Below are positions 5,084 to 21,883 of a stretch of DNA of 21,883 nt, in pieces. Source of the DNA: a virus. The stretch spans positions 1 to 21,883 of IMG/VR virus record IMGVR_UViG_3300020213_000425. The stretch is one strand, 5' to 3'. The notes below the pieces were generated by a model. That model was given only the letters and a program-made list of their open reading frames with translations. It had not been told where the DNA came from and did no database searches. Both the position numbers and the translations under genes were made by a program. The stretch's first letter is position 1, and every line of letters starts with the position of its first letter.

Positions 5084-5086
5084 ATG

Positions 5087-5650: not shown

Positions 5651-5655
5651 AAGAA

Positions 5656-5695
5656 ATCCTTTATATAAGGATAGGCCTCCGGCTAAAAGCCGAAG
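5656..5695 (-). promoter_or_regulatory. Two adjacent RNA hairpins; the second covers a ribosome binding site
   Basis: In the minus-strand RNA a first hairpin (5695-5677) pairs CUUCGGCU with AGCCGGAG (8 pairs, one G-U, loop UUU). A second (5672-5656) pairs AUCCUU with AAGGAU around an AUAUA loop. The AAGGA of the second stem is the Shine-Dalgarno site for the GTG at 5650, six bases away, so folding would hide it. If translation instead starts at the ATG at 5704 these hairpins lie inside the coding region. Neither is followed directly by a U-tract, so a terminator is unlikely. Confidence 0.45.
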
Positions 5696-5709
5696 ACCCA
5701 CCATATTTG

Positions 5710-6132
5710 TTAAATGGAGTTAGTAGCATCTCCACGTTGCCAGTGTCGGGGGAAAACCTTCACTGAGGCTGCTTCAAAATCTGGCGTTGTTCCCGCCACT
5801 GTAAATACTGCACGCACATATCTCTTGTCACAATACACGTCAATACGGTTTGTTTTACTTGAGTTAGCTGCGTCAGTTCCTGACAGTGTTCGAAAAGCAC
5901 CAATCTCTTCATTGCCTGATGCAAACGTAGATGAGTCAGACGCTTGAATTACAACGTCAAATACCCCATCATTTGCTCCTGTTGTAACTGCTCCAGAAGC
6001 CAGCTCTACAGTAATGTAGCCTGGCCGCCATACTGCAAAAGCGTCACCTTCATCGGTTCCGGCTGCATTCAGTGTGGCTCCTGTTGTCAGTTCGTATACA
6101 TTGTCTCCATCTGATACTGATGTTCCTGGCAT
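5710..6132 (-). CDS. Capsid cement/decoration-type protein, copy 2 (paralogue)
   Basis: This 140-aa protein is a diverged tandem copy of the preceding gene. Shared landmarks are MPGTSVSDGDN at the start, RPGYITVELASG, VIQASDSSTFASG, DVYCDKRYVRAVFTVAGT and a closing strand SVKVFPRHWQR. By the same reasoning it is a probable jelly-roll cement or decoration protein, perhaps occupying a different capsid site from copy 1 or forming heteromers with it. AAGGAG stands five bases before the ATG, and the gap to copy 1 is only 9 bases. The stop is followed by a leader with two hairpins ahead of the next gene. Confidence 0.65.
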   Translation of the reverse strand: MPGTSVSDGDNVYELTTGATLNAAGTDEGDAFAVWRPGYITVELASGAVTTGANDGVFDVVIQASDSSTFASGNEEIGAFRTLSGTDAANSSKTNRIDVYCDKRYVRAVFTVAGTTPDFEAASVKVFPRHWQRGDATNSI

Positions 6133-6141
6133 ATGTTCTCC

Positions 6142-6561
6142 TTAACCAGCAGTGTTTGATAATTGACGGTGTGTGTCACGAGCACGTAGCTTGAGTGTCG
6201 TGGCTGCATATGAACCAGCAGTCCCAGTAACAATCGCCACAACACGTACATATCGTTTTTTGATATCTACGTCCATGAAAAAGTCACCATTTGACTGGTT
6301 TGCATCTGTGCCACCCACTTTAAAACTACCGTGAGTACTAACGTCAGAAGAGAAGGCAGCTGCGTCACAAGACTGAATCTCAGCCTCAAACTCAGCTACG
6401 TTACCAGTCGAAGAAACTGTAGCAGTCTCTAGGTGTGCTCTAACAGCACCTGGTCGTCCAACTTCTGCTGCGGTCCCGGTTTGGGTACTGGCAGCTACGG
6501 TTAGTGTTGTTCCAGCCAGTAGGTTAGTGGCGTCTTTGTCCTGTACGGGTGTACCTGGCAT
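6142..6561 (-). CDS. Capsid cement/decoration-type protein, copy 1
   Basis: This is a 139-aa beta-rich protein beginning MPGTPVQDKDA, with a PGAVRAHLET strand, an EAEIQSCDAAAF segment, and a C-terminal DIKKRYVRVVAIVTGT motif. The pattern of IQ-x-(S)D-x-x-x-F followed by RYVR and a G-rich strand resembles small jelly-roll capsid cement proteins of the Bbp16 type, which sit on the outside of the shell and stabilise it. That family link is from memory. The gene follows the major capsid protein directly with its own Shine-Dalgarno site TAGGAG. It is clearly paralogous to the next gene: both start MPGT-x-V-x-D-x-D and share KRYVR and the spacing of the other motifs. Confidence 0.65.
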   Translation of the reverse strand: MPGTPVQDKDATNLLAGTTLTVAASTQTGTAAEVGRPGAVRAHLETATVSSTGNVAEFEAEIQSCDAAAFSSDVSTHGSFKVGGTDANQSNGDFFMDVDIKKRYVRVVAIVTGTAGSYAATTLKLRARDTHRQLSNTAG

Positions 6562-6573
6562 TGATGTCTCCTA

Positions 6574-7506
6574 CTAAGCGTTCGTGATGCCCGAAAGACG
6601 AGCCAACGAAAGTGGATTACGGACACACAGTCCAGGATAAGCTTCAACTCGGCCAAGGTGTCCTGGGGCTGCTTCGGTCTCGCCGAAGTCAGAAACTTCC
6701 CATTGTCCACCAGCACCAGCTAGTCCATGTACTCCATCATCAGCAAAGTCAACAGCCCAAATGGACGTGTTAACGGTGCCTGATCCTTCTGTTTCCGTGA
6801 AAGGAAGGATTGCTGTTCCTGAGCCATCATCACCAATGATGCGGATAGGAACGCCATTATATTGATAGACTTGGCGACCAAATACATCCGTGCCAACATC
6901 AATCAGGGAGATACCCGTGACAGTTGTTCGTGCAAGAGATGTGATCTTACGTCGCATAGTCCGATTCATTAGCAAAGCGGATGGTGTTTGGGTGCGTAGA
7001 GCATCCAACAACTGATCCAATTTGTCTAGGGTGAGGGCTGCACCATTGGTGCTATTGATAACAGCTTGTCCCAGTCCTTCGGCTACAAGAGCTTTTGCAC
7101 CCTTGAAGTCGTCGGCTGTTCCTGTGCCATCAAACCAGTACTTGTCATAAGTACGAGCCATTGATTTTGCCATCTTTTGAAACTGTCGGGCCTTTAGGTC
7201 GATTTGATCCGCTGCAACTCTAACTTCAAAGTTGTCTACGAAGATTTCTCCACCAAGAATAGCTACACCATAAAACTCTGTACGGTCAGTGCCATACGTG
7301 CGGGTGTAGGTATCGTTCACCTTACGAAAGGCGGTACCTGGTAGTGTGTCTTCGATTCGCACTTGAAGTGCATTGCCGGAAAAAGCCATCCAAGGCTGCA
7401 TTTCCATAATAGGAGACTCTTGGATTAGAGTCTCTGCCACACCTTGTGCCGTTGGGTCTGATCCCCATTTGACGGCTTCAAGGAGTGGTACTGAGCCGGT
7501 AGCCAT
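6574..7506 (-). CDS. Major capsid protein (HK97-fold type)
   Basis: This 310-aa protein builds the capsid shell. The N-terminal region (TLIQESPIMEMQPWMAFSG), then RIEDTLPGTAFRKVN, LGGEIFVDNFEV and a basic helix with AKSMARTYDKYWFDG, followed by a MNRTMRRKI segment, follow the order of the N-arm, E-loop and spine helix in HK97-fold coat proteins. The C-terminal part (VDFADDGVHGLAGAGG, ending in LSLARLSGITNA) also fits. No N-terminal delta-domain or prohead cleavage region is evident, consistent with the separate scaffold gene just upstream. I set the start at Met-6 of the longest frame because GGAGGA lies seven bases before it. The next gene begins 12 bases after the stop and is a cement-type protein, as expected in a capsid module. 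Confidence 0.85.
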   Translation of the reverse strand: MATGSVPLLEAVKWGSDPTAQGVAETLIQESPIMEMQPWMAFSGNALQVRIEDTLPGTAFRKVNDTYTRTYGTDRTEFYGVAILGGEIFVDNFEVRVAADQIDLKARQFQKMAKSMARTYDKYWFDGTGTADDFKGAKALVAEGLGQAVINSTNGAALTLDKLDQLLDALRTQTPSALLMNRTMRRKITSLARTTVTGISLIDVGTDVFGRQVYQYNGVPIRIIGDDGSGTAILPFTETEGSGTVNTSIWAVDFADDGVHGLAGAGGQWEVSDFGETEAAPGHLGRVEAYPGLCVRNPLSLARLSGITNA

Positions 7507-7562
7507 ACCGTATTCCTCCATGTTTGTTTTTATATTGGGCTAAGGAGGGATCTGCTCTAAAA
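7507..7562 (-). promoter_or_regulatory. Leader of the major capsid gene with strong ribosome binding site
   Basis: This 56-base gap separates scaffold and capsid genes. It contains GGAGGA (7519-7514) seven bases before the ATG at 7506, the strongest Shine-Dalgarno site seen in the window. An ATG at 7521 in the same frame has no such site upstream and itself overlaps the GGAGGA, so the site fixes the start at 7506. The A/T-rich run CAATATAAAAACAAAC just before it should keep the site unpaired. I see no clear promoter. Confidence 0.5.
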
Positions 7563-8030
7563 CTACATCTGGCGTTTAGCCTGCCGTTTAGCAGTTGCTT
7601 CAAGTCCAGCACGTATTTTAGCTAGTGGTGACGAGCTTGGGTCGATAGACGTGATGGAAGGCGACGTACCATTCAAGTTTCCAATTGCTTTAACAGATCC
7701 GAAGTTGTTCACTTCGTTTGTCGATTCTGGATTGAGAAACTCTTGGACAGCTGATTCCATGTTGTCTTCCGAAACACCTTTGCTTGTCAGCAAATCCCGG
7801 ACCAGTTGTTCTTGAGAAACTTTCCTAGAAGCTTCTAGCTCCTGGGCACGCTCTTCAATTTCACCTGGCTCGAAACCAGAAAGGTCTTCAGCTTTCACGA
7901 ACCTGTAACCATTTTCAGATATCACTGCATGTGACTTATACTTACTTAGTTGCTGTTCGAGGTCCCTGTTTCGCTTTTGGGTCTCTTCTAACTTATTTCG
8001 GAGTGAACTTCCATCTTCATACTCGGTCAT
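7563..8030 (-). CDS. Capsid scaffolding protein
   Basis: This 155-aa protein has the features of an internal scaffold that guides procapsid assembly and is then lost. It is charged, begins with a short coiled coil (about 8-33: LRNKLEETQKRNRDLEQQL), continues with a helical acidic middle (50-105), and ends in a basic segment KRQAKRQM, the type of C-terminus that binds the coat protein inner surface. It lies directly upstream of the major capsid gene, the usual place. No protease is fused to it. The ATG has AGGAG six bases upstream. The family assignment is by architecture and position rather than by a recognised motif. Confidence 0.7.
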   Translation of the reverse strand: MTEYEDGSSLRNKLEETQKRNRDLEQQLSKYKSHAVISENGYRFVKAEDLSGFEPGEIEERAQELEASRKVSQEQLVRDLLTSKGVSEDNMESAVQEFLNPESTNEVNNFGSVKAIGNLNGTSPSITSIDPSSSPLAKIRAGLEATAKRQAKRQM

Positions 8031-8139: not shown

Positions 8140-9414
8140 TTAAAATTTGGATGAGAGTCCTGTTTGCTGGATTTTGCCACCTTTAGCCTGGGTTATTGGT
8201 GAGTATCCTGAGTTCTTTCCAAGAGCTTCTTCGGACTTGAGGGCCTGATCCATCAGATCAGCAGCTGGTGCTGAGTTCAGGAATACTGCATCTTCAAAGT
8301 CTGTCTGGGTAAACGAGTTGGCTCTGTTAGATCGCTCAACAGCACCGGAGATCCAGTTCTTCTTTCTTGCGAAAGATCCATACTGTTCTTGGGCCTTAGC
8401 TCTGTTGACTCCTGCTTGCCTGAAAGCATTGATCCTTTCTGCTGTTGGTAGTCCCATGCCTGCCTCACTGGCAGCTGATCCGATCATAGCCATCTCAAAG
8501 CTGGTGACTAGTGAGTTGAGATCCAAGTAATCTGTGCCATTAGAGTAGAGGGCATCAGCCATCTGTCGTGCAAAGTCAGGGCTTGATTGTTGGATGTTAG
8601 CAATGGCTCCACCTGTGTCAATACCTTGTTCTTGCAGTCGCTCCAAGTTGGACACTACTCTATTGAGACCCACCTCTGTAGCTCGGGTAATCCATGTGTT
8701 GTAATCCATTGGACTAGCAGCGACTGACCGGTCATACTCTGATTGTAGTTGCTTGGCTTTCTCTGGGTCTACAGTAGCAGCGTACAAATCATCAGATGAC
8801 AGGTTCATTCCTGCGTACACGTAAAAAGCATCTTTCACGTTCTGAGAGGACTTCTCAACCTCGCCGTATACATCAAGTCTCTTCTTAAGCTCATTTGGGT
8901 CTACTTCATTTTCAATGAATGAAGCGATCTCTTTGTGTGTGATGTTAGGATTACGTCCATATTCATTCATTACTTGTCTGTAGTCAGTCACCCTTGATAG
9001 GTAGTCTCCCTCTGTCATACGCAAAGTGCCATCACCCCGACGGATTGACGGGAAGTACTCTTGCCACTGTGGTGTCTGTCGCAAGGCAGCTACGATAGCT
9101 TCTGGTGTATATCCTAGGATGATCCAGTTCCTAATATCATTCGTTAGTCCCAGCTGAGCAATCCACGGCATGAGATTACTCATAGTGTCCATAGCATTGA
9201 TGTTGCTGGTTGGGACCGTGGGACTAGGCCCTGCAAGACCACCAGTCAGGTTCTGGACGTTGTTTAGTGTGTCTTGATAGCTTGGAGGAGTTGGGAACCC
9301 ACTACCTGGCGGCGTCAGAGCGTATACAGGCCCTCCTGTCGGAGGTGGAGGTGTCGGTGGAGTTGAGGAGGGTCCACCTCCAGGTGCCCACAAATTCCAG
9401 TCAGTTATTGTCAT
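8140..9414 (-). CDS. Helical virion/ejection-block protein with Pro-rich N-terminus
   Basis: This 424-aa protein begins with about 65 Pro/Gly-rich residues (PPTPPPPTGG and similar), followed by charged helical sequence. The core has LGLTNDIRNWIILGYTPE, then LRQTPQWQEYFPSI (about 110-124), MTEGDYLSRV, and later ENEVDPNELKKRL. I associate this pattern of short helices, an aromatic-FP motif and a YLSR-type helix with large internal or tail-associated proteins of actinobacterial phages, but the match is from memory and weak. A similar RQT-W motif occurs in the C-terminal half of the neighbouring transglycosylase protein. The start is coupled to the preceding stop (TAATG). It is the last gene before the only gap over 100 bases, so it closes the block that starts at the portal. 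Confidence 0.55.
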   Translation of the reverse strand: MTITDWNLWAPGGGPSSTPPTPPPPTGGPVYALTPPGSGFPTPPSYQDTLNNVQNLTGGLAGPSPTVPTSNINAMDTMSNLMPWIAQLGLTNDIRNWIILGYTPEAIVAALRQTPQWQEYFPSIRRGDGTLRMTEGDYLSRVTDYRQVMNEYGRNPNITHKEIASFIENEVDPNELKKRLDVYGEVEKSSQNVKDAFYVYAGMNLSSDDLYAATVDPEKAKQLQSEYDRSVAASPMDYNTWITRATEVGLNRVVSNLERLQEQGIDTGGAIANIQQSSPDFARQMADALYSNGTDYLDLNSLVTSFEMAMIGSAASEAGMGLPTAERINAFRQAGVNRAKAQEQYGSFARKKNWISGAVERSNRANSFTQTDFEDAVFLNSAPAADLMDQALKSEEALGKNSGYSPITQAKGGKIQQTGLSSKF

Positions 9415-10994
9415 TATGAAAATCCCATCAATTTGCCAACTTGGTCGGCGGTCTTAGTGATATCGGTCTGTGCATTCTCAGTTGTCAGCCATTCATCTTT
9501 AGACTTCAGCTGTTGCTCAAACTCGAATACTGGTAGTTGCTGTGTCATTGCACGTTGTACGTCCGGTGCAAACATACCAGCGTCTGGTCGCTCAAGAATT
9601 TTCTGGTATGTGGCAATGTATGGCTGAGCCCACGTTTGAGTGTCAATCTCTCTTGGTTTCCCTGCATATAAGTTCTTTGCTAGGTCCTTGGCTTCTTCTG
9701 TGATGTCATCCAGGGATGACTGATTATTGAACATTGCTGTAGCTTTTTGTGAGATCATATCGCTGGACATCTGGATGCCCCAACGATCATACATTTCACG
9801 GAGTTGTGCAGCCTGGTTTTCAATATCAACACCTTGCTTACCCCTGTTTCGCTCTAGGTCTGCAATGCTTTGGTACCCAGGAGACAGTGGGTCTGCCATG
9901 TACAAAGGCTTGATCCAAGAATTAATTACTTGGCCCAGTGTTTTATTCCCTGATGCTACCTCTCTAGCGTTCGTCCTAAGAACTGCATCATTCATGTCAA
10001 TGTCTTTGCCCAGCAGCTTTTGGTATTCTGTGATGAGGGCTTCAGCTGCTTTCTGCGTCTGTGTCCCTTGCTCTGCTTCTGCAAGGTCGTCCCACTGACG
10101 TTGTTTGTCATTCAGGTTCTGGTACCAGCCAGTTTGTCTGATGAGTGCTTCAAACTCTGCTTCACCCATGTCTGGTCGGGCAACACGTTGCAAGATGGCT
10201 CTACGGATCCCGACATCCCCACGGGCTTCTGGATTGGATACCAGTATTTCCATGTAGTAATCAAAAGCTGCATTGAATGTACTGAACCTCGGGTCCCAGT
10301 TGGCGAATGCTTGTGCTGAGCCACCCGAGATTGGACTGTCACGGTGGAATTCAGCTTCTGGGATTTCAAACCTGTTAGTGATGGCTGAGATATCTTCAGA
10401 CCCGTCTAAGAGGTAGAAGATCTTGGCACCATTAAGGTCATACAGTACCACGTTGACACGTTGGCCATCTGCTGTAATAACAGTAGCAATACCTGCTTTT
10501 GTTGGGTCTGCCGGTGCTGGGAGTCTCACACCTCCCTTGGTTATTTGATTCCCGCTCACTGCTGTTTCTGGGGCTGTCTGGGGCACTCCTGATCCTCCTT
10601 GATCTGCTGGCATTGCATATTGTCCTGATGCTGCTACGTCAGCTACTTCTTGTAGTCGGGCTCTGTATGAGCCTGATGTGTAAACAGTCCAAGCACTCCA
10701 TTGGGTGCCCTGTCTTGATAAAGATAAACAGATTGATAGGTTGATGATTGGGTCTTTAGCACCCTCGATACCCTGCCCATATGCCAGGATCATGTCTCTG
10801 TGGGTACTTGTTAGTACTTGTCCAAGTCCTGTTGCAGATGACCCAGAATTTTTAACCCCTGGTCTGCCTCCTGACTCTTGAAGTACAATAGCTGTCATTG
10901 TCTGGGCAGCTTGTGGGTCAAAACCAACATGTAGACACATAGCATACACTTCGGCTGCTGTATATCTTACGTTGGGATCTTGAATAATAGCCAT
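9414..10994 (-). CDS. Virion-associated lytic transglycosylase (SLT-like domain) with helical C-terminal region
   Basis: The N-terminal 120 residues form a lysozyme-like lytic transglycosylase domain. The likely catalytic Glu is E40 in LQESGGRPG, followed by the conserved SATGLGQV (53-60) and a WSAWTVYTSGSY segment (99-110) seen in such domains. These enzymes cleave the MurNAc-GlcNAc bond of peptidoglycan. A mid region (about 145-215) is beta-rich. The C-terminal 300 residues are charged and helical, with segments such as RQTGWYQNL. The enzyme has no signal peptide and lies among virion genes far from any holin, so it is probably carried in the particle to open the cell wall during DNA entry rather than acting as the late endolysin. 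The ATG shares its A with the preceding stop (TAATG) without an obvious Shine-Dalgarno site, and the 3' end couples likewise to the next gene. Confidence 0.75.
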   Translation of the reverse strand: MAIIQDPNVRYTAAEVYAMCLHVGFDPQAAQTMTAIVLQESGGRPGVKNSGSSATGLGQVLTSTHRDMILAYGQGIEGAKDPIINLSICLSLSRQGTQWSAWTVYTSGSYRARLQEVADVAASGQYAMPADQGGSGVPQTAPETAVSGNQITKGGVRLPAPADPTKAGIATVITADGQRVNVVLYDLNGAKIFYLLDGSEDISAITNRFEIPEAEFHRDSPISGGSAQAFANWDPRFSTFNAAFDYYMEILVSNPEARGDVGIRRAILQRVARPDMGEAEFEALIRQTGWYQNLNDKQRQWDDLAEAEQGTQTQKAAEALITEYQKLLGKDIDMNDAVLRTNAREVASGNKTLGQVINSWIKPLYMADPLSPGYQSIADLERNRGKQGVDIENQAAQLREMYDRWGIQMSSDMISQKATAMFNNQSSLDDITEEAKDLAKNLYAGKPREIDTQTWAQPYIATYQKILERPDAGMFAPDVQRAMTQQLPVFEFEQQLKSKDEWLTTENAQTDITKTADQVGKLMGFS

Positions 10995-12766
10995 TACGTT
11001 AAGTCATTTGCTTGTGAGGCTGCTTGGAACATGCGCTCTAGGAAAGTGGAATTGTTCTTAGCCTGGTCTGAGAACGCTACAGCAGCAGAGGTTGAATTTG
11101 TCTGTCCAGTTCTCATACCAGCATGTACTGACTTGTTGTCAACAATAACATTTCCAAGTAGGTCTTGGCCTGCATTCTGGAACTGTTGCAAGTACTCTTC
11201 TTCTTTCGCACCATCTGGCTTAGCACCAAACAGGTCCTTGTAAGTGTCAGTCTTACGTACCATATCTGCTGCAAGAGCATCTGGGTTTGATCGCTCTACT
11301 ACCCTAACTCCTCCACGGTGTCCACCAGAAGAGAACTGCCCTTGGAAGTAGTTACCAAATCCTTCAGGGTTGGAGGATGATACTTGGGCTTGAGCTAGTG
11401 CAATCGCCTCAGACCTGAGAGTGCCATACAGAGAATCTACCATCCCCTCATCTGGCTCCATCTGGAACCAGGATCTAAATAGATTCCCGACAATCTCTCT
11501 GGACTCTTCTTTTGGCCGAACGTCTGCTGTAGCCGTGGATGTGGAAGTCAATGATCCGAAAGTCTGTCCACCTGATGCTGGAGTGGTAAGAGCTTTGTAG
11601 TCAAAGCCTTGTGGGTCCAGAGGATTTCCCTGTGTATACCCCATACTGGTCAAGATCTGACCAATTTGATTGGCCTGGTTTTGGTCAACTGGTCCACCAT
11701 TAGCATATACTTGATCTGCTAGTGCTTTGTTTTGAGTAGACAGGATTGTGAGCCCTCTGCTAGGATTATTGGCGTATTGACCGGCATTATTTATCGTGGA
11801 CATTACTTGTGTTAACTTGGCACTTGCTTTTCCAGCTAATCCTTTATTGTACTGGACCTGTTCAACCCTCTGGGCCAGTCCTTTAAAACCTCTGGCACCA
11901 CTGGCTGGGGGAGTTTCTCGGGTGGGCTGTGTATAGTCTTGTCCTTGTGTGGCAAAAAGATACGTGTTAAAGTCCATACCAGGATTGCCTCCTGTCATGT
12001 TTGATACTGTCGTCCACTCTATTAACTTTTCATCCCAGTTTGGGTCAATGGATGAGTATATCTCAACTTCCCTAGCACTGATAATTCTCGTTCCATTTAG
12101 GCTATTAACATCTCTGATTGCTACGGATGTTGTCACTGTTGGGATTCGGCTTGGGTCACGGCTTGAAATTACAGCCATCACCCCAAAGTCTGTCTGGTCT
12201 GTTGACCCCAGCCTTTCCTGTAGCTCTTCTGGATTATCTACTTCATTACCCAGTCTAGTATTCTTGTTGTATGTCTCTACATCATATTGGGTCAGTGGGC
12301 CACCAGGTACAACGACATCTTGGGTCCCATACCCAAAGACATCAAACATCCAAGGTTGGATCTTCATGTCAGAAGAAGACTGGCTTACTACCCTGGCTTT
12401 GGCAGCATCAGCTTCTTCGGTTGTTGTTGCATTCTCATCAATCCGTTTCAGTTCATCATCAAGGTCTTTTTTATCTTTGTTGTAGTGAACATTATCCCAG
12501 ATGTCTTTGATATCTGATTTTCTTATTGTCCCAAAATGGGCCTTCTTCTTGTAACCCCCAGGCTGCATACCAAACAATGGGTCTACACTATTAGGCGATT
12601 CAGGCCCACGAACACCTGAGGTATTAAAATCGTCAACATTATTAATAAAGTACAGCCACTCAGAGTCAGATATGGGGTGCCCTAGCTCTGCCTCAAAATC
12701 TTTTCTTGTTTTATTATCGGTAGTGAATTCAATTTCGGTGAATTCAATTTCGTCATCATTAGCCAT
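10994..12766 (-). CDS. Uncharacterised 590-aa virion block protein
   Basis: I do not recognise this 590-aa protein. The N-terminus is acidic and contains a short duplication (EIEFTEIEF), caused by a perfect 15-base tandem repeat in the DNA. The first half has mixed secondary structure. The central part (about 270-400) is rich in Gly, Asn, Gln and Ser and looks flexible. The last 150 residues are more helical, ending with a Gln/Asn-rich segment (LERMFQAASQANDLT). There is no signal peptide or membrane segment. The start ATG shares its A with the stop of the giant protein (TAATG), with GAGGA nine bases upstream, and its own stop overlaps the transglycosylase start the same way. Tight coupling to both neighbours suggests it belongs to the same internal virion or ejection complex. 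Confidence 0.55.
   Translation of the reverse strand: MANDDEIEFTEIEFTTDNKTRKDFEAELGHPISDSEWLYFINNVDDFNTSGVRGPESPNSVDPLFGMQPGGYKKKAHFGTIRKSDIKDIWDNVHYNKDKKDLDDELKRIDENATTTEEADAAKARVVSQSSSDMKIQPWMFDVFGYGTQDVVVPGGPLTQYDVETYNKNTRLGNEVDNPEELQERLGSTDQTDFGVMAVISSRDPSRIPTVTTSVAIRDVNSLNGTRIISAREVEIYSSIDPNWDEKLIEWTTVSNMTGGNPGMDFNTYLFATQGQDYTQPTRETPPASGARGFKGLAQRVEQVQYNKGLAGKASAKLTQVMSTINNAGQYANNPSRGLTILSTQNKALADQVYANGGPVDQNQANQIGQILTSMGYTQGNPLDPQGFDYKALTTPASGGQTFGSLTSTSTATADVRPKEESREIVGNLFRSWFQMEPDEGMVDSLYGTLRSEAIALAQAQVSSSNPEGFGNYFQGQFSSGGHRGGVRVVERSNPDALAADMVRKTDTYKDLFGAKPDGAKEEEYLQQFQNAGQDLLGNVIVDNKSVHAGMRTGQTNSTSAAVAFSDQAKNNSTFLERMFQAASQANDLT
12723..12752 (-). repeat. Perfect 15-base tandem duplication in the 590-aa gene
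   Basis: GTGAATTCAATTTCG occurs twice in direct succession on the plus strand (12723-12737 and 12738-12752). On the coding strand it duplicates the residues EIEFT in the N-terminus. The length is a multiple of three, so the frame is kept. Exact identity suggests a recent slippage event. Confidence 0.9.
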
Positions 12767-15700
12767 TAGTAAGTGTCCTCAATCGGTCCGTATACTCTTT
12801 TGTATAGAAGGTTGTATAGCTGTATAAACTCAGGGTCTTCCTTAGCGTAGATGATCGCCAAGTCTCTTGCTGATTTTTGGTATTGTACTGGCATATCGGA
12901 AGGGTCAGCTTCTGGGTTTACGCCATAGTAGAACTTATATTCATCCTGCATTGATTTCAGGTAGTCATCAAATTCTTTCAGCCGCTCTTCAGTAGGGTTC
13001 TGTGGGTTGCGGATGTACAGATTCTTCTTAGCCTGCGTCTCAGCAATCCAGCCAGCTGTCTCAATCTTTTGTAGGTTCCACTTAGGGTACTTGTCTTCAA
13101 TCTTTCCAAGTTTCTCCAGATAGTCTACTGCTTCTGGATACTTAAATTCGCCATTAGGAAGCCTAGCACTAAGCAAAGATTTAGACCCATTTGATAGTCC
13201 ATATTGGTCAGCAATCATATTGTATTCTGTTCTGAGTTCGTCAAACTCAGCAGATCCTTGTTTGACTTCAAATTCAGTCGTCATTCCCCATGAGCCGTAC
13301 CCAGGCTTACCAAGCGTTCCACTAACAACATAGAACTGCTCTTGTGTATACTCTGTTAGTTTTTCAATCTCATTCCAAGCAGGGAGCAGGCGCTTAAGTA
13401 GTTTCTCCCACTTTTTAGTGTCTCTTTGAGAGCCGACTTGAAGTGCCTGTGGCAGGAACAAGTGGATCAAGTCGTTGGTTTGGCTATTGGCTGGTGACAT
13501 AGAGACTGCGGTAGCTGTGGCGTTTATCAATGGTCTGTTGATACCACCAATCTCACCAGCTGATATACCACTTCCCCACATCGACAATCTTCCAATTTCT
13601 TTAGCTAGTGGTACGTGCTTCGCTAGTTTCTCATTAAGGTCATACTTGCTTCCCAGAAATTCGTACATTTTTAGTGCATCATGTATCAGAAGCATTCTTC
13701 CAGTTTCTGAGAACATCCACTCTCCCATTTCGGTTATGATCTTTTTCTGGAATGAGAACGGGAATACTAAATAATTAGCAGACAGCTCTAGTGCTGATCG
13801 TCCCTTTTCAGGGTATGTAAACATATTCCTGGCTGCATGAAAAGCCTCTTCTTTTGGCACTCCTACAGATGTCATATACGCATACGCCTTAAAAGATTCT
13901 TTCTCAACTGAGTAACCTAAGATTCCTCCAGCTTCCAGTAATTGGTCCACTCCCACACTGACTGATGGGTCAGTACGGGCTATGCTGCCTCTTGCCAATG
14001 TTGTCCACTCATGTCGGGCATTGGCCATAAATGGCTCTCCCAATTTTTTGGTTATTCCTTTGACCCTCGCTATTAGTGGTAAACCATCTTTAACTGCTTC
14101 TGGCTTGTATTTTGAAATTAGCCGAAGGGTGGCCCCTTCTACCCAGTTTCTTGCATCGAACATTGGGTTAGCGCTGAACCTGAAAAAGTCTCGTAACTTG
14201 AGCAATCCCTCTGAGATCTGTCCATAGTTTTCCCAGTCTCTATGAGCAATGTAGGATGTTACTTTATTGGCTTCATCTCCAGGTTGTAGCTGGAGTCCTT
14301 TGTTCCCTACTCTATTTATGGCTCTAGCAGCTCCTGCTCCCAGAGCTGCTCCACCTACTGCTCCAAGGACAGATTTCAAAGACCCATCCTCACCAAGGTC
14401 AGCTCCAGCCTCGCCACCAACAATCCCACCAATGAGTGTCCCAGGTGTGTTGTACTTGAGAGCTTTTGCTGGGAGGGCTGCACCAGCAATACCACCAGCA
14501 GCAGCCAATCCAATTCTCTCAAGTGGGTCATAGTCACCTTGTTCTTGTCCTACGTAAGCCCCTCCAGCTGCTCCAACAGCTGCCGACAACACTCTTCGAG
14601 ATGCTGCGCCTTCGTCCGTGATGGACGTGGAACCTAACATCTTGAGAGCTTTTGTTGATGCCGGATTAGCTATCAGCCAGCTATCTATGGCTGCTATTCC
14701 TAGAACATCAAATCCTGGATTGTTAGCTTTCTTTGCTGCTTCCTGTATCGCTTTAACTACAGGAGGATCTAGGTTCAAATGTGCCAGAGCTTTGCTTACA
14801 TTAGCAGCACTCATTGAAAACATACCCGTCGGTCTACTCAAGCTGGATACGGCTGCTGTTACACTGTTGCCAAAACCATTATTCAGTTGTTGGGTTTCTT
14901 TAAATGCTTCACGACTTTTCTGCGCATAGTTGTGGAGTGCATTCAGAGCATCATCAATGTATTTACTATCTGGGTTAATGTCGGTGCCTAAAAATATTCC
15001 TGGTTTGTTTGCTTCAAGCTCACGCAGACCACGGTTCATTACATCCTTGAATACTTTCTCTCTGCTGTATGTGATGTAGGAATTGTTTACGGGACTGAAG
15101 AAATTGTGCATAGAGTGTTTTCTGTGCATGGACTGTGTCATTTCAGCGAATGGCCCAACGGACAAATCATTCACATCAAAGCCATGGAAACCAGATCTTA
15201 TTTGTGCCAAATCGTAGCCAATAGCCTTCAACTGGGCAGCCAGTGGATCCGACGGGTCCTTGAACTGTAGTCTCCTGCCCAAGTAAGGTATGATTCTTTT
15301 TAGGTCATCTAGCTGAGATTCTACATCGCCAGATCTGTCAAGTCTACGGCCGATTTGTGAGTCTTTCCAGACTCGGTTAGATTTGATGATTTCCAATTCA
15401 GTGTCCAAATAAGAAACTGCTTTGGATGGGTCCTGCCCATTAGCAGCAATCATTCTGAACGTGCGTAGTAGACCCTCTCTTTCTTTTATTGTATCAGCAG
15501 AGCCTATTGCTGCTCTCTCTGCTATCCAGGCATCTGAGACAGAGTTAAGCCCATGAGCATCAACCTGGCCTGTGAACGTTTTCACCATAGAGGAAAATTT
15601 CCCAGGGCCATCGACCACAGGTACGGTAGGCAAGAACTTTTCAACATTTTTCCTGGCTGCGACCATCTTCTTTCCATGCACGTAAAACTCAGCTGCTTGA

Positions 15701-18225
15701 CTAGCATCTACTGTCTCAGGCTTCATTAAAACTTGACGGCTAGCAGGGTTCTTTGACGAAGCGAATGCTGTATAGAAATTCTTGTCCATATCAGCAGCTG
15801 GTGTTCTGAGGATAGAATCTTCCATCAGCAGTTCTGGGGTATATCCGGGAGTGGTTGCAGTTTTAGAATCCATCAAATTGTAGTTTTTAAAATCATTGTA
15901 TTCTGCTGTTAGCTGCACACGACTTCGGAGGTCTTTTGCCTCTGACAGAAGATTATCACCTTTCATGTAGTTTTTATTGTTGAACAATTCAGATCCCATG
16001 TCTTGCATGGCCTTGAAAAACTCTTCTTCTGATACAGACCCCCAGGTCCCATCTCCGTGTAGGATGTCATTCAGAGACCCTGGACGAAGACCATTGTGGT
16101 GGTTCATTCTTTGGATCAGCTCTCCTGTAGCTACAATAACTTCTGAAGGGTCATCACTTCGCATTCTGCGTGACAGTTCTTTAAAGATCTTCGTAGCCAT
16201 AGGATTCTCCATGTCCTCTGCATCGGCTAGTACATTGATCAGTACCTCTATGTCCTCAGGGTCTTCAATGCGCAGTTCCCGTAAATGGGAGCTGTCAGCT
16301 CTCTTCATTGCAAAGTATGAGTCTTGATATGCTCTTTCTTTTTTGACAGGGTCATCTATCTTTTTTGCTATATCCTGCGCATATATGTTAGCACGCTTGT
16401 CAATAGCGGTAGACACAACGTGCATCTGGAAAATTCTTCCCAGCATCTCATCGTCGGCTGCATCATATGCCCATTTTACAGCTTCCTTAGGGCCTTTTTC
16501 TGCTGCAATTGCATAAAAATTAGCCACAGCATCATCAACATTTTGGATTGTGTCAAACTGTGATAGTTTGTCGGGGGAGTCTACAACCACACCAAATTTG
16601 GGTTGGTTCAACATATGGTCTGGGACAGTCTCCATGATACCAAGAGCACGACTAGTTGCTTTGTAGTGTCCGTGGGACAAAGCTTCAACATTTGCCATCT
16701 GTTGGAAGTGTTCTTTGTTTGCGTTCATTGCACTGGTTTTCGCATTGGCCAGCCACGCAAGTGGGTTCTTGCTTTCGGTACTTACTAGTCCACCCAGACC
16801 ACCTTTTCCTGCACGTCCAAGGCTCTTTAGTGGATTAGCTAGTGCTCCGTCACGCAAAACTGTAGCTGGTGCCAGGAATATGTCTACTGGCATTTGAACT
16901 GCACTAACAATAGGGTGTTCAGAACGGAATTCTTTGAACCTATTGATGTCCAGCTTTTGTGACCTACCTGTGCCACCACCAAGGTCAGCGATTGATTGAC
17001 CAATGCCCTGGTCACCTAACAGTTCACCCTCAAGAGTAGACAGCCAGCCCATCTTCATAACCTCACCAGTCACACCTCTTGCTGTAATCAGTGCATTGTT
17101 TTGTCTGGATTTTGCCAGGCCACTACCTAACTTGTTGAGCGCACCAGGCATTGACGGCCTTTGTAGAATATTTGACGTCATTGATGGCCTAGATATTTGT
17201 GCTGCTCTTGCTAGTACCGAATCAGTATTCATGCTCCAAGAAGTTATGGGCTTCTTGGCAAAGTTGGCTATGTTCTGTCCTAGGGACAGTCCTCCCTTTG
17301 TTTGACTAGCTACCCGGTAAAAATCGCCAGCAGTGTCGGCGACCTTAAGTGCCTTGTATCCGCCAGCCATCATTCCAGCTCGTGCAAAAACAACAGCTCC
17401 CCCAACCCCAGATGCCATCAGCGCTAGATTCAAAGCTGGCAGTACTCCGTCAAATGCGAAGTCTTTAGCAAATCCCCAGAAGCTCTGTTCGCCATCTTTC
17501 CATTTACTGTACGAGTCTGCTACACCAACGAAGTCAGGGATGATCCCTAATTGTGCTGCTGCATGAGCCAGACCTGTGGGACTCATCCATTTATCGGCCA
17601 GGTCCATAGCGTTTTGGGCTGAGATAGCACCAGTTCTATTACCAGCAAATCTATTGGTGACATCCTGCTGCATCAGAGTCTTGAACCCAGTATTTCGAGC
17701 TGGGTCCCACATAGTGATGTCTGAGTCTTCTGAGATAATACCAGCAGCAATCATGCGTAAGTTGATACTCTCTACAGACCCTTCTGATAATCGTTTAGCA
17801 TCTGGAGCACCCATTACATCTGAATACACATCCCTGAAAGTGTCAGACTGGCTTTGTTTTTCTATGGCTGGGAGTGGTGCTTGTGGGATATTTGGATTGG
17901 TGAGGATAGGATCTCTTTCCGTACCGAACCCAGCTGCTTGTAAAGATGTTGTGTTGGCTGGTTGGAATGATCCCCTGTAGTCATTAGCTAGACCGTGCAA
18001 ATTGGCGGCTAGTTCATCAGCAGTGCTGCCCCACTCAGGAGCCATAGCAATATCTAATTTAACTTCATCCGGGATTGTACCCAGATTCCAAGTTTTTTCG
18101 ACATCAGTCATACGTTGTAGCTGAGAATCTATTGACCCTAGGTCCAGTGGAGCTTGCTCAACAATGTTGGGCTGGGCTGTTGGAGGAGCCAGTGAAGATA
18201 GAGAGTCCATAAAACCGTTATTCAT
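12766..18225 (-). CDS. Giant (1,819 aa) internal/ejection-type virion protein with glycine-zipper segments
   Basis: This is the largest gene in the window. No catalytic signature is visible. Three regions stand out: a hydrophobic stretch at about 255-292 (LPALNLALMASGVGGAVV), a glycine-zipper block at about 1210-1309 with repeated small-residue segments such as GLAAAGGIAGAALPA and LGAVGGAALGAGAARA, and an aromatic patch at about 1484-1510 (YLVFPFSFQKK). The rest is mainly charged helical sequence. Glycine zippers are common in proteins that insert into membranes. With a transglycosylase gene two genes downstream, the simplest inference is a DNA-ejection or internal core protein that helps form a channel through the cell envelope. 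A tape-measure protein is the main alternative, but it would be unusual between portal and scaffold. The start is an ATG with AGGAG six bases upstream, overlapping the preceding stop by 8 bases. The stop overlaps the next start as TAATG. Confidence 0.65.
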   Translation of the reverse strand: MNNGFMDSLSSLAPPTAQPNIVEQAPLDLGSIDSQLQRMTDVEKTWNLGTIPDEVKLDIAMAPEWGSTADELAANLHGLANDYRGSFQPANTTSLQAAGFGTERDPILTNPNIPQAPLPAIEKQSQSDTFRDVYSDVMGAPDAKRLSEGSVESINLRMIAAGIISEDSDITMWDPARNTGFKTLMQQDVTNRFAGNRTGAISAQNAMDLADKWMSPTGLAHAAAQLGIIPDFVGVADSYSKWKDGEQSFWGFAKDFAFDGVLPALNLALMASGVGGAVVFARAGMMAGGYKALKVADTAGDFYRVASQTKGGLSLGQNIANFAKKPITSWSMNTDSVLARAAQISRPSMTSNILQRPSMPGALNKLGSGLAKSRQNNALITARGVTGEVMKMGWLSTLEGELLGDQGIGQSIADLGGGTGRSQKLDINRFKEFRSEHPIVSAVQMPVDIFLAPATVLRDGALANPLKSLGRAGKGGLGGLVSTESKNPLAWLANAKTSAMNANKEHFQQMANVEALSHGHYKATSRALGIMETVPDHMLNQPKFGVVVDSPDKLSQFDTIQNVDDAVANFYAIAAEKGPKEAVKWAYDAADDEMLGRIFQMHVVSTAIDKRANIYAQDIAKKIDDPVKKERAYQDSYFAMKRADSSHLRELRIEDPEDIEVLINVLADAEDMENPMATKIFKELSRRMRSDDPSEVIVATGELIQRMNHHNGLRPGSLNDILHGDGTWGSVSEEEFFKAMQDMGSELFNNKNYMKGDNLLSEAKDLRSRVQLTAEYNDFKNYNLMDSKTATTPGYTPELLMEDSILRTPAADMDKNFYTAFASSKNPASRQVLMKPETVDASQAAEFYVHGKKMVAARKNVEKFLPTVPVVDGPGKFSSMVKTFTGQVDAHGLNSVSDAWIAERAAIGSADTIKEREGLLRTFRMIAANGQDPSKAVSYLDTELEIIKSNRVWKDSQIGRRLDRSGDVESQLDDLKRIIPYLGRRLQFKDPSDPLAAQLKAIGYDLAQIRSGFHGFDVNDLSVGPFAEMTQSMHRKHSMHNFFSPVNNSYITYSREKVFKDVMNRGLRELEANKPGIFLGTDINPDSKYIDDALNALHNYAQKSREAFKETQQLNNGFGNSVTAAVSSLSRPTGMFSMSAANVSKALAHLNLDPPVVKAIQEAAKKANNPGFDVLGIAAIDSWLIANPASTKALKMLGSTSITDEGAASRRVLSAAVGAAGGAYVGQEQGDYDPLERIGLAAAGGIAGAALPAKALKYNTPGTLIGGIVGGEAGADLGEDGSLKSVLGAVGGAALGAGAARAINRVGNKGLQLQPGDEANKVTSYIAHRDWENYGQISEGLLKLRDFFRFSANPMFDARNWVEGATLRLISKYKPEAVKDGLPLIARVKGITKKLGEPFMANARHEWTTLARGSIARTDPSVSVGVDQLLEAGGILGYSVEKESFKAYAYMTSVGVPKEEAFHAARNMFTYPEKGRSALELSANYLVFPFSFQKKIITEMGEWMFSETGRMLLIHDALKMYEFLGSKYDLNEKLAKHVPLAKEIGRLSMWGSGISAGEIGGINRPLINATATAVSMSPANSQTNDLIHLFLPQALQVGSQRDTKKWEKLLKRLLPAWNEIEKLTEYTQEQFYVVSGTLGKPGYGSWGMTTEFEVKQGSAEFDELRTEYNMIADQYGLSNGSKSLLSARLPNGEFKYPEAVDYLEKLGKIEDKYPKWNLQKIETAGWIAETQAKKNLYIRNPQNPTEERLKEFDDYLKSMQDEYKFYYGVNPEADPSDMPVQYQKSARDLAIIYAKEDPEFIQLYNLLYKRVYGPIEDTY

Positions 18226-20254
18226 TTGATGCTCCTCTAAACTTTATAGCCTTTTTAACTCCAAGTTGTTGGAGTGTTACTGCGATTGCGTTGGCTGTGG
18301 ACGCATCAACCTTGTTCTCAAGGTCTACTGGCACATATACTTGTAGGGTTTCTGAACGATCGCTGATTTTGAATGCTCCCGATTCTTCTGAGATCACCAC
18401 ACCTGTTGGGGTTGGTGTCATCCACAGAGTGTTTTTCTTCTCGAATAGAGAAGACTGTGGTGGGATCTTGCCCTGATACTCAGCAAGGGCATTGATCCAG
18501 ACCTTGCCATCTGTCTTGGTGACAGAAAAATCTGGCTTGTCTACCGTTTCGATTTCTTTATCAAGGAATACCTTAACCTGATTATCTCTGAGTGGGCCAG
18601 CTTTTTCAAAGCTGACCTTGTAAGTACCGGCTGGTGTTTTTTCGTGGGTTTCACGGTAGGCTATGGATCCTTCTGGAGCTTCTCCATCAAAATTGACGTA
18701 TGCTGCTTTCTCATAACTACCAAGAATGTCCTCTGCTGAGGCATCTAGGACTTGCCAAGCTCTTCGGACATCTCTTGCAGTCTTGAAATCAAGGATAACC
18801 CCTACCCTATTATTAGCTTGTGCTGCACCCTCAACCAGTCTTTTTGCCTGAAACAGGGATGTGCTGGTTACGTTAGTGGCTGTGATCCCAGCTCTGGCTA
18901 GTTGACCTGTAATTGCTTTACTAGCACCCAGCATCTCTGGGTTGACAGATAAGAATATGGACTTAGAGTCCTTTAAAGATGGCAGAGACTCAGGGGAAAG
19001 CGCTTCAGTGTACGTATTAGATACTTCACTGTCTGAAGCCCAGACCTGCATTGGGGCTTTTCTGCCCCATACACTGCCTCTAGGAGTGTTTATAACAGTC
19101 TTTGCTAGTCCTCTAACCTGTATATCAACGCCTTCAACAGAGGGACTTCCATCAGGGTCTACAATATGTATGCCCCTTTGGCCCTTAGTTTTTGTGTTTA
19201 AGTCAGATAGGTCAACGAAACGGGGTGGTTGTTGGTTCCAATCAGCAATTTCATGGAGGGGTTGAGCCTCTCCTGTGCCTACAAGGTGCCGGAAGATGTT
19301 AGCTTTTAGCAGTTCTGGGTTATCTGGGGTTGCTCCAGTAGCTTGTTTTGACACAACATCCATCAATTCCACTGGGGTTATTGGCTTCCCTAGTTTCTCT
19401 GACAGGATCTCAGCTGCCACAGAGTATGATTTCTCGATTGATTGTTGTGTCTTCTTGCCCACTTCGGCTGTGAAACCCAGGGCTACCTCAGCAGCTCCAT
19501 TCCAGTTTGGCTCTACATCCTTCTTTTTTGCTGGTGTTTGCCAGGCTTTAATTATGTTCTCAACCAATGGTTGTATCATTGCTGCTCTTGAAGCAGACGA
19601 AAGAGATTCTAGCCTCTTGGAGATCCCATCCTTGTCTAGCCTGTCCATGCTGGTCTCACCAAAGTGAACAGGTCTGATGATAGGCTTTAGATTCCCTGAG
19701 ATGTCTCTTACTAGGCCCTCTGTCCTGATGCCTACTCCCCTAACTAGGTCAGGAGTGGGGTTGTCACCTAGAGCGGAAGATACTTCCATGATCTTTTGGG
19801 TAAGTCCTGAAAACTCATCAGGTCTAAGAGTGGCACCGGACTTAAATTTCTTGAACAGGCCGGTATCTTCTGGGTCTGTTAGTATTTTAGAGTTGACCAG
19901 TCTGTCAAATCGGCCCATCTCAAAAGCAGCTGCTGATGCCATTGCTTGTCTAGGAGATTGGTACGAATACCTTTCAGGTTCTGCAACAGCTTGCTGGTGT
20001 TGTGGGACATTCTGCCCAAGGAAGTGACCTAGTTCATGGAACATAGCCCTAGACCCAGGTTTGTTCTCTCGTGAGGTAGCAAACTGGGATACTGCGTAGT
20101 CAGCAGATATGTCACCAGTGATATCATTGTCAGGGACAGCAAAAGAGAGCCTCTGAGTCCTGGGGGTCAGGGATGCCAGGGCTATCCTTGGATCTTGCTC
20201 CTGTGACCGACGAAGGTCATGGAAAGTCTTATCGAATTGCACTATTTCCACCAC
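18218..20254 (-). CDS. HELGH-motif putative zinc metallopeptidase, large virion-associated protein
   Basis: This 678-aa protein carries the zinc-protease signature HELGH at residues 73-77 (context RAMFHELGHFLGQNV). Established gluzincin and metzincin enzymes use the two His of HExxH as zinc ligands and the Glu as catalytic base. G80 sits where metzincins have the Gly of HExxHxxGxxH, but position 83 is Val rather than His, and the nearest later His is H86. The third ligand is therefore unclear and activity is unproven. The remaining roughly 590 residues are mixed alpha/beta with no family I recognise. The start is a GTG with no convincing Shine-Dalgarno site, 26 bases inside the preceding gene and just after an in-frame TAG. 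Other GTGs follow at 20251 and 20242, and a frameshift from the upstream gene cannot be excluded. Its position suggests a packaged or ejected protein, or a capsid-processing protease. Confidence 0.6.
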   Translation of the reverse strand: MVEIVQFDKTFHDLRRSQEQDPRIALASLTPRTQRLSFAVPDNDITGDISADYAVSQFATSRENKPGSRAMFHELGHFLGQNVPQHQQAVAEPERYSYQSPRQAMASAAAFEMGRFDRLVNSKILTDPEDTGLFKKFKSGATLRPDEFSGLTQKIMEVSSALGDNPTPDLVRGVGIRTEGLVRDISGNLKPIIRPVHFGETSMDRLDKDGISKRLESLSSASRAAMIQPLVENIIKAWQTPAKKKDVEPNWNGAAEVALGFTAEVGKKTQQSIEKSYSVAAEILSEKLGKPITPVELMDVVSKQATGATPDNPELLKANIFRHLVGTGEAQPLHEIADWNQQPPRFVDLSDLNTKTKGQRGIHIVDPDGSPSVEGVDIQVRGLAKTVINTPRGSVWGRKAPMQVWASDSEVSNTYTEALSPESLPSLKDSKSIFLSVNPEMLGASKAITGQLARAGITATNVTSTSLFQAKRLVEGAAQANNRVGVILDFKTARDVRRAWQVLDASAEDILGSYEKAAYVNFDGEAPEGSIAYRETHEKTPAGTYKVSFEKAGPLRDNQVKVFLDKEIETVDKPDFSVTKTDGKVWINALAEYQGKIPPQSSLFEKKNTLWMTPTPTGVVISEESGAFKISDRSETLQVYVPVDLENKVDASTANAIAVTLQQLGVKKAIKFRGASNE

Positions 20255-20651
20255 TGATTTGCTGGGCTAGGGTTCGTGCAAAGGCTTTCGTTTGAGGTGA
20301 CGTCTGGTCTGAGTTAATTAACTGATCTAGCAAAGCTAGTCTTTGTTGGTTTGGTGGCATGGGTGGTGGGGCCATTGTTGGGGGTGCCAGTGGAGTATTC
20401 ACTGGTGTACTGGGCTCTGTTGTTGGAGCCATCATCCCACCAGGTAGTCCCATCTCACCACTAGACGGTGGAGGTGGTACTGGCGGGCTGACTGGAGGCA
20501 ATGCTGGTCCAGCTTGTTGTTTCTGAGGAGCCATAGGAGGTAGTTGCTGGTTCAACCTATCAAGGTCAGCCTTCTCTCCATATGTACCTGAGCCTGGCTT
20601 ATTCACTCCGCCACCTGGCATTGGTTGCTTCATAATATCGGGACTATCCAT
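20229..20651 (-). CDS. Small proline-rich virion-associated protein
   Basis: I do not recognise a family for this 140-aa protein. Residues about 35-105 are low complexity, with many Pro, Ala, Met and Gln and runs such as PPVPPPPSSGE. Residues about 105-135 look like one amphipathic helix (LLDQLINSDQTSPQTKAFAR). It starts at an ATG sharing its A with the portal stop (TAATG), with AGAGG eight bases upstream, so it is translationally coupled to the portal. The similar Pro-rich composition of the portal C-terminus just upstream suggests a linker or adaptor that works with the portal, but this is inference. Its 3' end overlaps the next gene by 26 bases in the +1 frame. Confidence 0.6.
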   Translation of the reverse strand: MDSPDIMKQPMPGGGVNKPGSGTYGEKADLDRLNQQLPPMAPQKQQAGPALPPVSPPVPPPPSSGEMGLPGGMMAPTTEPSTPVNTPLAPPTMAPPPMPPNQQRLALLDQLINSDQTSPQTKAFARTLAQQISGGNSAIR

Positions 20652-21883
20652 TAGCTTCTAACCTCTGATCCTAGTAAGGACTGGGAGTTTCCGGCTGGAA
20701 CGCCTAGTCGTGCGAGAAGGTCCCCACCAGATGGGGGAGGCGCAGGCGCCGGTCCAGCGGGAGGCTGGCCTGGTGGGGACATACCTGGAGGACCCCCAGG
20801 TAGAGCTTCGGGGAGCCCAGATTGTAATTGTTCTTCTTGTGGAGCTACAATAACTTTTTTGTATACATCAATGAGATCATCCCCACGTTCTCTTGCTTCA
20901 ATGAAATCAATCAGTTGCTTGTCAGAGACGGCTCCTTGTTGGGCCATCTGGAGAAGCTTAGCAAACATCATAGCCTTCAACTTCTCAGAGTCGATGCGCT
21001 GTTGTTCACGTTTAACGTCGATGATTCCGTCAATGTTTTCTTGTACTGTCTCTCTGGAGATATACTCTCCTGAATTGTACTGGATATTCAATACGGCAGT
21101 CTGTGCAGGGTCACGGCCAAAGCCAAGTCCATACTCAACACTGATCCTGTTGGTCAGCATGATATCCGATGGGTCATACTCCACAACGAATTGTTGGTTA
21201 TAGAGCACTCCACTAACAGTTCTTTTCTTTCCTGCGAAGTACGTCTTGTCTACCTTGAGTGCTTGCCTGAGCGCTTTCTCCAACATGTTTTGGAAGATGG
21301 TGTGGTATGTTCTGATAACAGTGTTCATCATTCCAGCCGTAGCTTCCAAGAACTTGGCTGATGCGATTGCTTGGTCGATCTGTCCTGGTCGTGACTTAGG
21401 CCATCTACCACCCAGGTGGATACTGTCTTCCATCATTTGAAGGTCCTGTACTACAGAAAGAGCAGGGACTGCGGGAGCTACACGACCGATCTTGCCATTG
21501 ACGCCCAGCTCAATATAGCCACCTCCACCATATGGGATCTCTCCAATAAGGTCAGATACAAAGATGTCTGAGTATACAGCCTGGTCTGCATAGTCCAGCA
21601 CCATCGACATTAGTCTGATGTGAGCTTTCAGTACGTTGACCACTTGGTCGAACTGGCCACGAAACTCACCATCAAGTGTGAACCGGCTACCAAGGATGAC
21701 TGGGCAGATGCCAGTCTTTAAAGGAATCCGGTACAGCTCTACTGGAAGATAGGAGACTGTTTGTCCTGCCATCTTGCCCGTGGTACCATATAGGGCTGCA
21801 CATACTATTTCATCACAGGAGAAGTACTCAGCAATAACGACTTTCTGTGACTGGAGTTGTTTATTATCCATCGTCCTGGATAG
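20651..21883 (-). CDS. Portal protein, partial (N-terminal part outside window)
   Basis: This is the C-terminal part of a phage portal protein, the dodecameric ring at one capsid vertex through which DNA is packaged and ejected. The frame is open to the window edge. The first internal ATG (21871) has AGGA only two bases upstream, so the gene most likely begins outside the window. The visible 411 codons contain a mixed alpha/beta region, a long helix-rich stretch (about 165-210 counted from that ATG), and the segment SRETVQENID followed by a charged helix with EQQRIDSEK (272-297), which resembles the C-terminal helical part of many portals. The tail (about 352-385) is rich in Pro and Gly. The stop overlaps the next start as TAATG. 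The portal call rests on recognised family pattern and on the position ahead of the other head genes. A terminase gene would be expected to the right. The Pro-rich tail is atypical and may be a flexible linker. Confidence 0.75.
   Translation of the reverse strand, partial: LSRTMDNKQLQSQKVVIAEYFSCDEIVCAALYGTTGKMAGQTVSYLPVELYRIPLKTGICPVILGSRFTLDGEFRGQFDQVVNVLKAHIRLMSMVLDYADQAVYSDIFVSDLIGEIPYGGGGYIELGVNGKIGRVAPAVPALSVVQDLQMMEDSIHLGGRWPKSRPGQIDQAIASAKFLEATAGMMNTVIRTYHTIFQNMLEKALRQALKVDKTYFAGKKRTVSGVLYNQQFVVEYDPSDIMLTNRISVEYGLGFGRDPAQTAVLNIQYNSGEYISRETVQENIDGIIDVKREQQRIDSEKLKAMMFAKLLQMAQQGAVSDKQLIDFIEARERGDDLIDVYKKVIVAPQEEQLQSGLPEALPGGPPGMSPPGQPPAGPAPAPPPSGGDLLARLGVPAGNSQSLLGSEVRS

Follow-up and report, generated by a model that had tools for sequence, protein, structure and literature searches.

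The window analysed here, 21,883 bases long, takes in an entire viral contig (IMG/VR record IMGVR_UViG_3300020213_000425) with its genes on the minus strand, and this work concerns a block of large genes, lying between the portal gene and the presumed scaffold gene, which probably constitutes a virion-borne DNA-delivery module. Read from the right end, the order is portal, p140, A, B, C, D, E, presumed scaffold, and capsid protein. The portal reading frame (20651-21883, the C-terminal part of the protein) covers 410 amino acids (aa) and is open at the window end, with no upstream stop, most relatives being about 590-650 aa long; because the window end cuts the gene, the ATG that would start a 406-aa portal is internal. 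Its identity as a portal is suggested by its relatives (57% identity to portals of viral contigs) and a weak PHROG match (0.0025), and the record of the window gave none to PF16510, the P22 portal family. It is followed by p140 (20229-20651), a small Pro/Gly-rich protein with homologs after the portal in relatives, and then by the A slot (18218-20254), a single large open reading frame (ORF) between p140 and B that encodes a 678-aa protein (p678), B (12766-18225, 1819 aa), C (10994-12766, 590 aa), D (9414-10994, 526 aa), and E (8140-9414, 424 aa). The 155-aa scaffold (7563-8030) is presumed from its position, between E and the capsid gene in relatives as well, and from a coiled-coil-like composition, and the major capsid protein (6574-7521) matches phrog_212 (1e-57). 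No terminase lies within the window. Neighboring genes overlap by 1 base (portal/p140, B/C, C/D, and D/E), 8 bases (A/B), or 26 bases (p140/A); from portal to E these overlaps resemble those of a tightly coupled operon, and the gene run is translationally coupled. An earlier note on this DNA had described five large proteins of 678, 1,819, 590, 526, and 424 aa between portal and scaffold, and the sizes and coordinates proved exact; all five are present, and its count of five intervening genes has to be extended by a sixth, the small and conserved p140.

The block is conserved as a unit. Relatives were gathered through a portal search (34 viral contigs), an alignment of E (33 loci), and an alignment of B (38 loci), and loci with identical stretches were merged into 50 groups, including the window and two Streptomyces records. 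Gene order was counted in groups holding at least three core genes, B or E among them, which left out 11 of the 50 groups as too short; in all 39 eligible groups the core genes run collinearly, on a single strand, in the order portal-p140-B-C-D-E-scaffold-capsid. Homologous blocks of this kind were what the earlier note had proposed to look for. Portal and scaffold lie 12.6 kilobases (kb) apart in the window and 11.5-19.7 kb apart in the 13 relatives holding both genes; the corresponding gap is 0.1 kb for T7 and only about 14 bases for P22, and the premise of the earlier note, a close grouping of portal, scaffold, and capsid genes, is true of these two phages, the ones compared. Searches of the literature on Beephvirinae, podovirus ejection proteins, and virion hydrolases turned up, within the text that they covered, no paper discussing this block. 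As a separate observation, four further loci (L139, L141, L142, and L143) have mainly the last third of B in common with the others, along with weak portal/terminase similarity and, in two of them, D or E too; these loci could form a link between this lineage and further podoviruses.

D is a candidate virion muralytic protein. The window D matches Pfam SLT_3 (1.1e-8) and SLT (5e-7), both over cut-off, and this is the peptidoglycan-cleaving domain that the earlier note had reported. The protein comprises a variable head, which in the window is SLT-type (residues 19-103; 10686-10940) and carries QESGG...GLGQ, and a C-terminal domain (residues 245-526; 9417-10262), conserved over about 280 residues, putatively for docking and homologous to the C-termini of Streptomyces phage gp11/gp12. 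Heads were assigned at E<=0.01 in 28 D proteins, of which four come from two Streptomyces phages and 24, that of the window among them, from the present lineage. A recognized muralytic head of one of five kinds is present in 14: SLT/SLT_3/Rpf-like in six, VanY in three, M23 in two, NlpC/P60 in two, and phage-tail lysozyme in one (5.1e-22). The SLT-type D of L117 barely reaches the SLT cut-off. The NlpC/P60 and SLT proteins of the Streptomyces phages are paralogs with a common C-terminal domain (hhalign 2.3e-57). Two relatives, L060 and L107, have a D without a recognized head and a C homolog that bears M23 (7.4e-23 and 7e-25, respectively), with an SLT match on C that is below cut-off in L060 (0.0017) and stronger in L107 (7.1e-11). 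A compensation rule, whereby C always supplies the enzyme when D has no head, fits these two and fails in L070, L134, and the G017 contig, and was dropped. C itself conserves mainly its last ~100 residues, at the C-terminus. Another head, FNPxxTT-like and assigned by eye in seven D proteins, may resemble lysozyme and was also set aside; it has no Pfam or PHROG match, and hhalign comparisons with the SLT, lysozyme, and VanY heads were negative.

The exchange of heads can be followed at the DNA level. Relatives L067 and L118 are 86% identical across 16 kb that span portal, A, B, and C. The alignment stops where D starts; about 750 and 640 bases, respectively, are unaligned before 85% identity resumes, and at this break L067 has a VanY head and L118 a different, unrecognized one. 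What separates the two is an exchanged cassette, bounded by the start of the gene and the end of the head. Across the D set, the head types mapped on the tree of the C-terminal domain, counting "none" and one type assigned by eye as types, need 10 changes where the minimum is six, and exchange has therefore occurred more than once, with head types still clustered on the tree (none of 200 shuffles was as low). Within the block, then, the muralytic enzyme called for by the earlier note appears to be kept or exchanged from relative to relative. What is new here is the construction of D, in which exchangeable muralytic heads sit on a C-terminal domain that is conserved, with wall cutting assigned at the level of the domain family. 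A muralytic domain found by family search could also mark D as a lysis endolysin that was placed by chance in the head operon. We regard this as very improbable, given that the Beephvirinae have a separate endolysin between terminase and portal and that D has a large non-enzymatic C-terminal domain, which in one phage is common to two different enzymes.

B is a helical protein and a candidate membrane/channel or core component. Its relatives, of which 38 come from viral contigs, range from 1496 to 2092 aa and are best conserved over the last 500 residues; they were reached via the portal search and then by alignments, the 1819-aa sequence alone having no match in the viral collection and none among annotated phages. 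No significant PHROG, Pfam, or PDB family was found for it. Residues 1206-1310 (14296-14610) contain 11 GxxxG motifs, a number reached in none of 2000 shuffles, and the glycine zippers of the earlier note are thereby borne out. A hydrophobic segment (residues 256-274; 17404-17460) is conserved in position, as 22 of 26 relatives, like the window, have their global hydrophobicity maximum within residues 200-330. The channel candidate of the note stays a conjecture for B, which has these two stretches and matches no known fold. The AlphaFold model of the C-terminal part is all-helical, with a predicted local distance difference test score (pLDDT) of 60 overall, which is weak, and about 85 in the last 220 residues. 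E, read as an all-helical partner, matches phrog_8424 (2.1e-18), is a homolog of Immanuel3 gp13 and Manuel gp14, and likewise gives an all-helical model (pLDDT 77). Colicin Ia, tape measures, and a PhiM1 ejectosome chain appeared among the fold matches of B and E far below significance and were not used.

Tape-measure proteins are long and helical and often carry muralytic domains, and a protein as long, helical, and hydrophobic as B might accordingly be the tape measure of a long-tailed phage, with D and E as tail-tip proteins; some weak, non-significant BFVD matches of B are indeed tape measures (best E 0.55). Such a phage is hard to reconcile with the position of the block genes upstream of the capsid gene. 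Two relatives look complete (G001, 47,344 bases with a 99-base end repeat, and G012, 51,081 bases with a 127-base repeat), and among the 10 proteins downstream of the G001 capsid gene none matches a tape measure, tail tube, or tail chaperone, in agreement with the earlier note, which had seen no tape measure; some have minor-tail matches, and the largest G001 protein outside the block is at most 649 aa. Furthermore, the tail has been imaged in a phage with the same module: Abafar is a podovirus whose tail measures 16 nm by transmission electron microscopy, according to the available part of its description (PMC11536984). A long-tailed phage is thus highly implausible, and the short tail proposed by the earlier note is well supported through Abafar, the relative that was imaged.

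The isolated kin found are Streptomyces phages (Beephvirinae) only. Profile comparisons that hold Streptomyces rows are circular, and only single-sequence values or values from Streptomyces-free profiles are used. Single window sequences match Immanuel3 in the portal (1.8e-35, phmmer), D (6e-7), and p306 (5.2e-7), and E matches Manuel (3.5e-9). Profiles of the relatives match Immanuel3 gp12 (hhalign 4e-12, for D) and gp13 (8e-13, for E), as well as the Abafar portal (3.1e-62), terminase (6.1e-71), and p306 (1e-8). Abafar has the same layout as the window, from its portal (3412-5235) to its capsid gene (17925).

A short tail leaves room for another arrangement, in which the block would encode fixed tail-tip or tail-hub parts that drill the wall without being ejected, as in the phi29 knob. 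Homologs of D are annotated as "minor tail protein" in several Streptomyces phages, and phi29-like podoviruses of Gram-positive hosts use a tail-knob enzyme and, as far as the accessible text of two sources goes, have no T7-type ejection set (PMC8954989, PMC6116005). The genes, however, lie between portal and scaffold, with the collar and tail genes some 4-6 kb beyond the capsid gene, and B, C, D, and E total about 3,360 aa, which is much for a 16-nm tail. We consider this, the main rival to delivery, unlikely.

The A slot is occupied by a single large ORF of 505-1933 aa between p140 and B in 25 of the 25 loci listed, a few of which have additional small ORFs as well. No other gene of the block varies as much, and p678 is a short member that matches the 1433-aa A protein of L131 (phmmer E 6.9e-7). 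A single HELGH is present at residue 73 of p678 (0.008 expected by composition), and HExxH occurs in 14 of the 25 A-slot proteins (13 relatives and the window), plus L146. These motifs would suit a capsid-maturation protease, a role for which the earlier note had put p678 forward. In the relatives, however, the motif lies near the C-terminus of proteins of 979-1933 aa, elsewhere than in p678; it is missing at the aligned place in L131 and L140, the only direct homologs of p678, and from 11 of the 25 loci, whereas a protease essential for assembly would be expected to be conserved. A protease is therefore only a weak candidate for p678, and maturation in place of delivery is an improbable role for A. 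Among 12 A-slot proteins scanned, DUF7178 is over cut-off in nine, in one of them only partially, and not in those of the window, L060, and L134. In the 1587-aa A protein of L127, residues 929-999 match DUF3293 (6.8e-8, over cut-off) and, overlapping it, S-AdoMet_lyase (4.3e-6, 27.1 bits against a cut-off of 28); the DUF3293 region recurs in the A proteins of L071, L069, L129, L112, and L124 (phmmer), and no PDB lyase match was found for it. These matches hint at an S-adenosylmethionine (SAM) lyase-like part of A in some relatives. Because its turnover in size and domains beside the portal resembles that of polyvalent phage proteins, A would most likely be cargo that accompanies the DNA and not a component of the channel.

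Taken together, we consider it probable that the block is a virion-borne DNA-delivery module of a short-tailed phage, whose host would probably belong to Acidimicrobiia or related Actinobacteria. In the mechanism that we propose, adsorption would presumably depend on the collar/fiber genes. B, C, D, and E would be assembled on or inside the portal vertex and released at infection, whereupon the head of D (or C in some relatives) could cut a hole in the cell wall, and B could use its glycine-zipper stretch and the conserved hydrophobic one to cross the membrane. B, perhaps together with E and C, would line a path through wall and membrane, with E and C docking or bridging, and A would enter together with the DNA. 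Head exchange would reflect the need to match whatever wall chemistry the host of the moment has.

Several points weigh against this interpretation. Packaging in the virion and ejection are themselves what we infer from the genes. The hydrophobic maximum of the window B is ordinary in height (197 of 500 shuffles reach it), its C-terminal 703 residues have no PDB or BFVD fold match at E<=0.001, and the E model has no PDB fold match at that threshold, the best VIA-align hit having a Z of 4.8 over 52 residues. Half of the D proteins (14 of 28) are without a recognized muralytic domain, and in the three relatives that break the compensation rule none was found in either D or C (the G017 D having been read, not scanned). 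B and C have no homolog detectable by hhalign in the Streptomyces phages, so the imaged podovirus shares only part of the block. As for the host, the only portal matches in the genome collection are two metagenome-assembled genomes (MAGs), one labelled Acidimicrobiaceae (67%) and one Acidimicrobiales (50%), and a search of 395 genomes in the class of the latter gave two matches, the seed itself and a partial one; the assignment is drawn from the binning of these two MAGs and the kinship with Streptomyces phages.

Left of the capsid gene lie a tandem pair of small proteins, more virion genes, and a collar-fiber protein near the left end of the window. The tandem proteins, related to each other and 140 and 139 aa long (5710-6132 and 6142-6561, minus strand), come directly after the capsid gene and both match phrog_5707 (6.3e-9 and 1.1e-5); they are likely duplicated capsid-decoration proteins. 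A 205-aa protein (5087-5704, minus strand) matches phrog_23653, of unknown function (2.8e-37), as does its homolog in G001 (3.4e-55). p306 (1724-2644) matches phrog_7578 (2.3e-16) and is a candidate short-tail or adaptor protein found also in Streptomyces podoviruses. The collar-fiber protein (458-1720, minus strand; phrog_8763, 1.1e-39) has short repeated units in mid-protein, before its collar domain.

These results suggest a separate delivery set for this lineage, which has ties to Actinobacteria and comes from marine and other samples. A broader proposal, which we put forward tentatively and consider possible rather than probable, is that actinobacterial podoviruses, whose hosts are monoderm, carry an ejection machine of their own, unrelated in sequence to those of T7 and P22, in which wall-cutting heads plug as cassettes into a shared docking domain and a co-encoded, virion-delivered polyvalent protein A, SAM-lyase-like in some relatives, acts against the host; if so, this SAM-lyase-like domain could disarm restriction as the DNA enters. 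The head cassette also implies a rule by which host wall chemistry should predict head type, which could aid host prediction for uncultivated phages, and the layout of the block provides a handle for naming "hypothetical" giant proteins in podovirus genomes.

Comparison with known systems places the block closest to the Beephvirinae (Immanuel3, Manuel, and Abafar), which share the succession of terminase, portal, small genes, a very large gene, one or more muralytic proteins, an E homolog, a scaffold-sized ORF, and capsid, and whose terminase, portal, D C-terminal domain, E, and p306 are homologous to those of this lineage. They differ in having two paralogous enzymes (NlpC/P60 and SLT), where the present lineage has one, and in having a tRNA array between E and scaffold and an endolysin gene that precedes the portal. 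By hhalign, their proteins of 1646-1648 aa and 271-274 aa (gp9/gp10) showed no relation to A, B, or C, though they may be remote kin. A tRNA-Met gene also lies at the A/B junction of the Acidimicrobiales MAG contig (L146:13778-13852), the Beephvirinae array being in the same module. The A slot resembles polyvalent phage proteins in being very large and variable, in having HExxH in many members, and in lying beside the portal; it differs in that only DUF7178 and DUF3293 were recognized in it, and only HELGH in p678. Polyvalent proteins are thought to be injected along with the DNA, as stated in the available part of PMC5512222.

Ejection systems of other podoviruses offer analogies of function. 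Like gp14-gp15-gp16 of T7, a set of large virion proteins of which one carries a transglycosylase, the block includes a candidate muralytic domain, on D, and the enzyme domain of T7-type ejection proteins is described in the accessible part of PMC8954989 as able to move between partners. Unlike the block, the T7 ejection genes follow the tail-tube genes downstream of the capsid gene; no sequence match to the T7 set was found, and here a single docking domain goes with five kinds of enzyme. At E<=0.1, no PDB match was obtained with the profiles of B, C, D, and E, and a missing match does not preclude homology to T7. P22 similarly has several ejection proteins in a late operon (gp7, gp20, and gp16), with genes that lie, unlike the block, downstream of the capsid gene and of the head-completion and needle genes; gp16 is described in the same portion of that source as having no muralytic domain. 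In the phi29-like phages, the tail-knob enzyme takes the place of such proteins. Since it has the enzyme feature of the T7 ejection family and not its gene location, we keep the block out of that family; without claiming kinship by descent, our reading is that it may work like these ejection modules in function.

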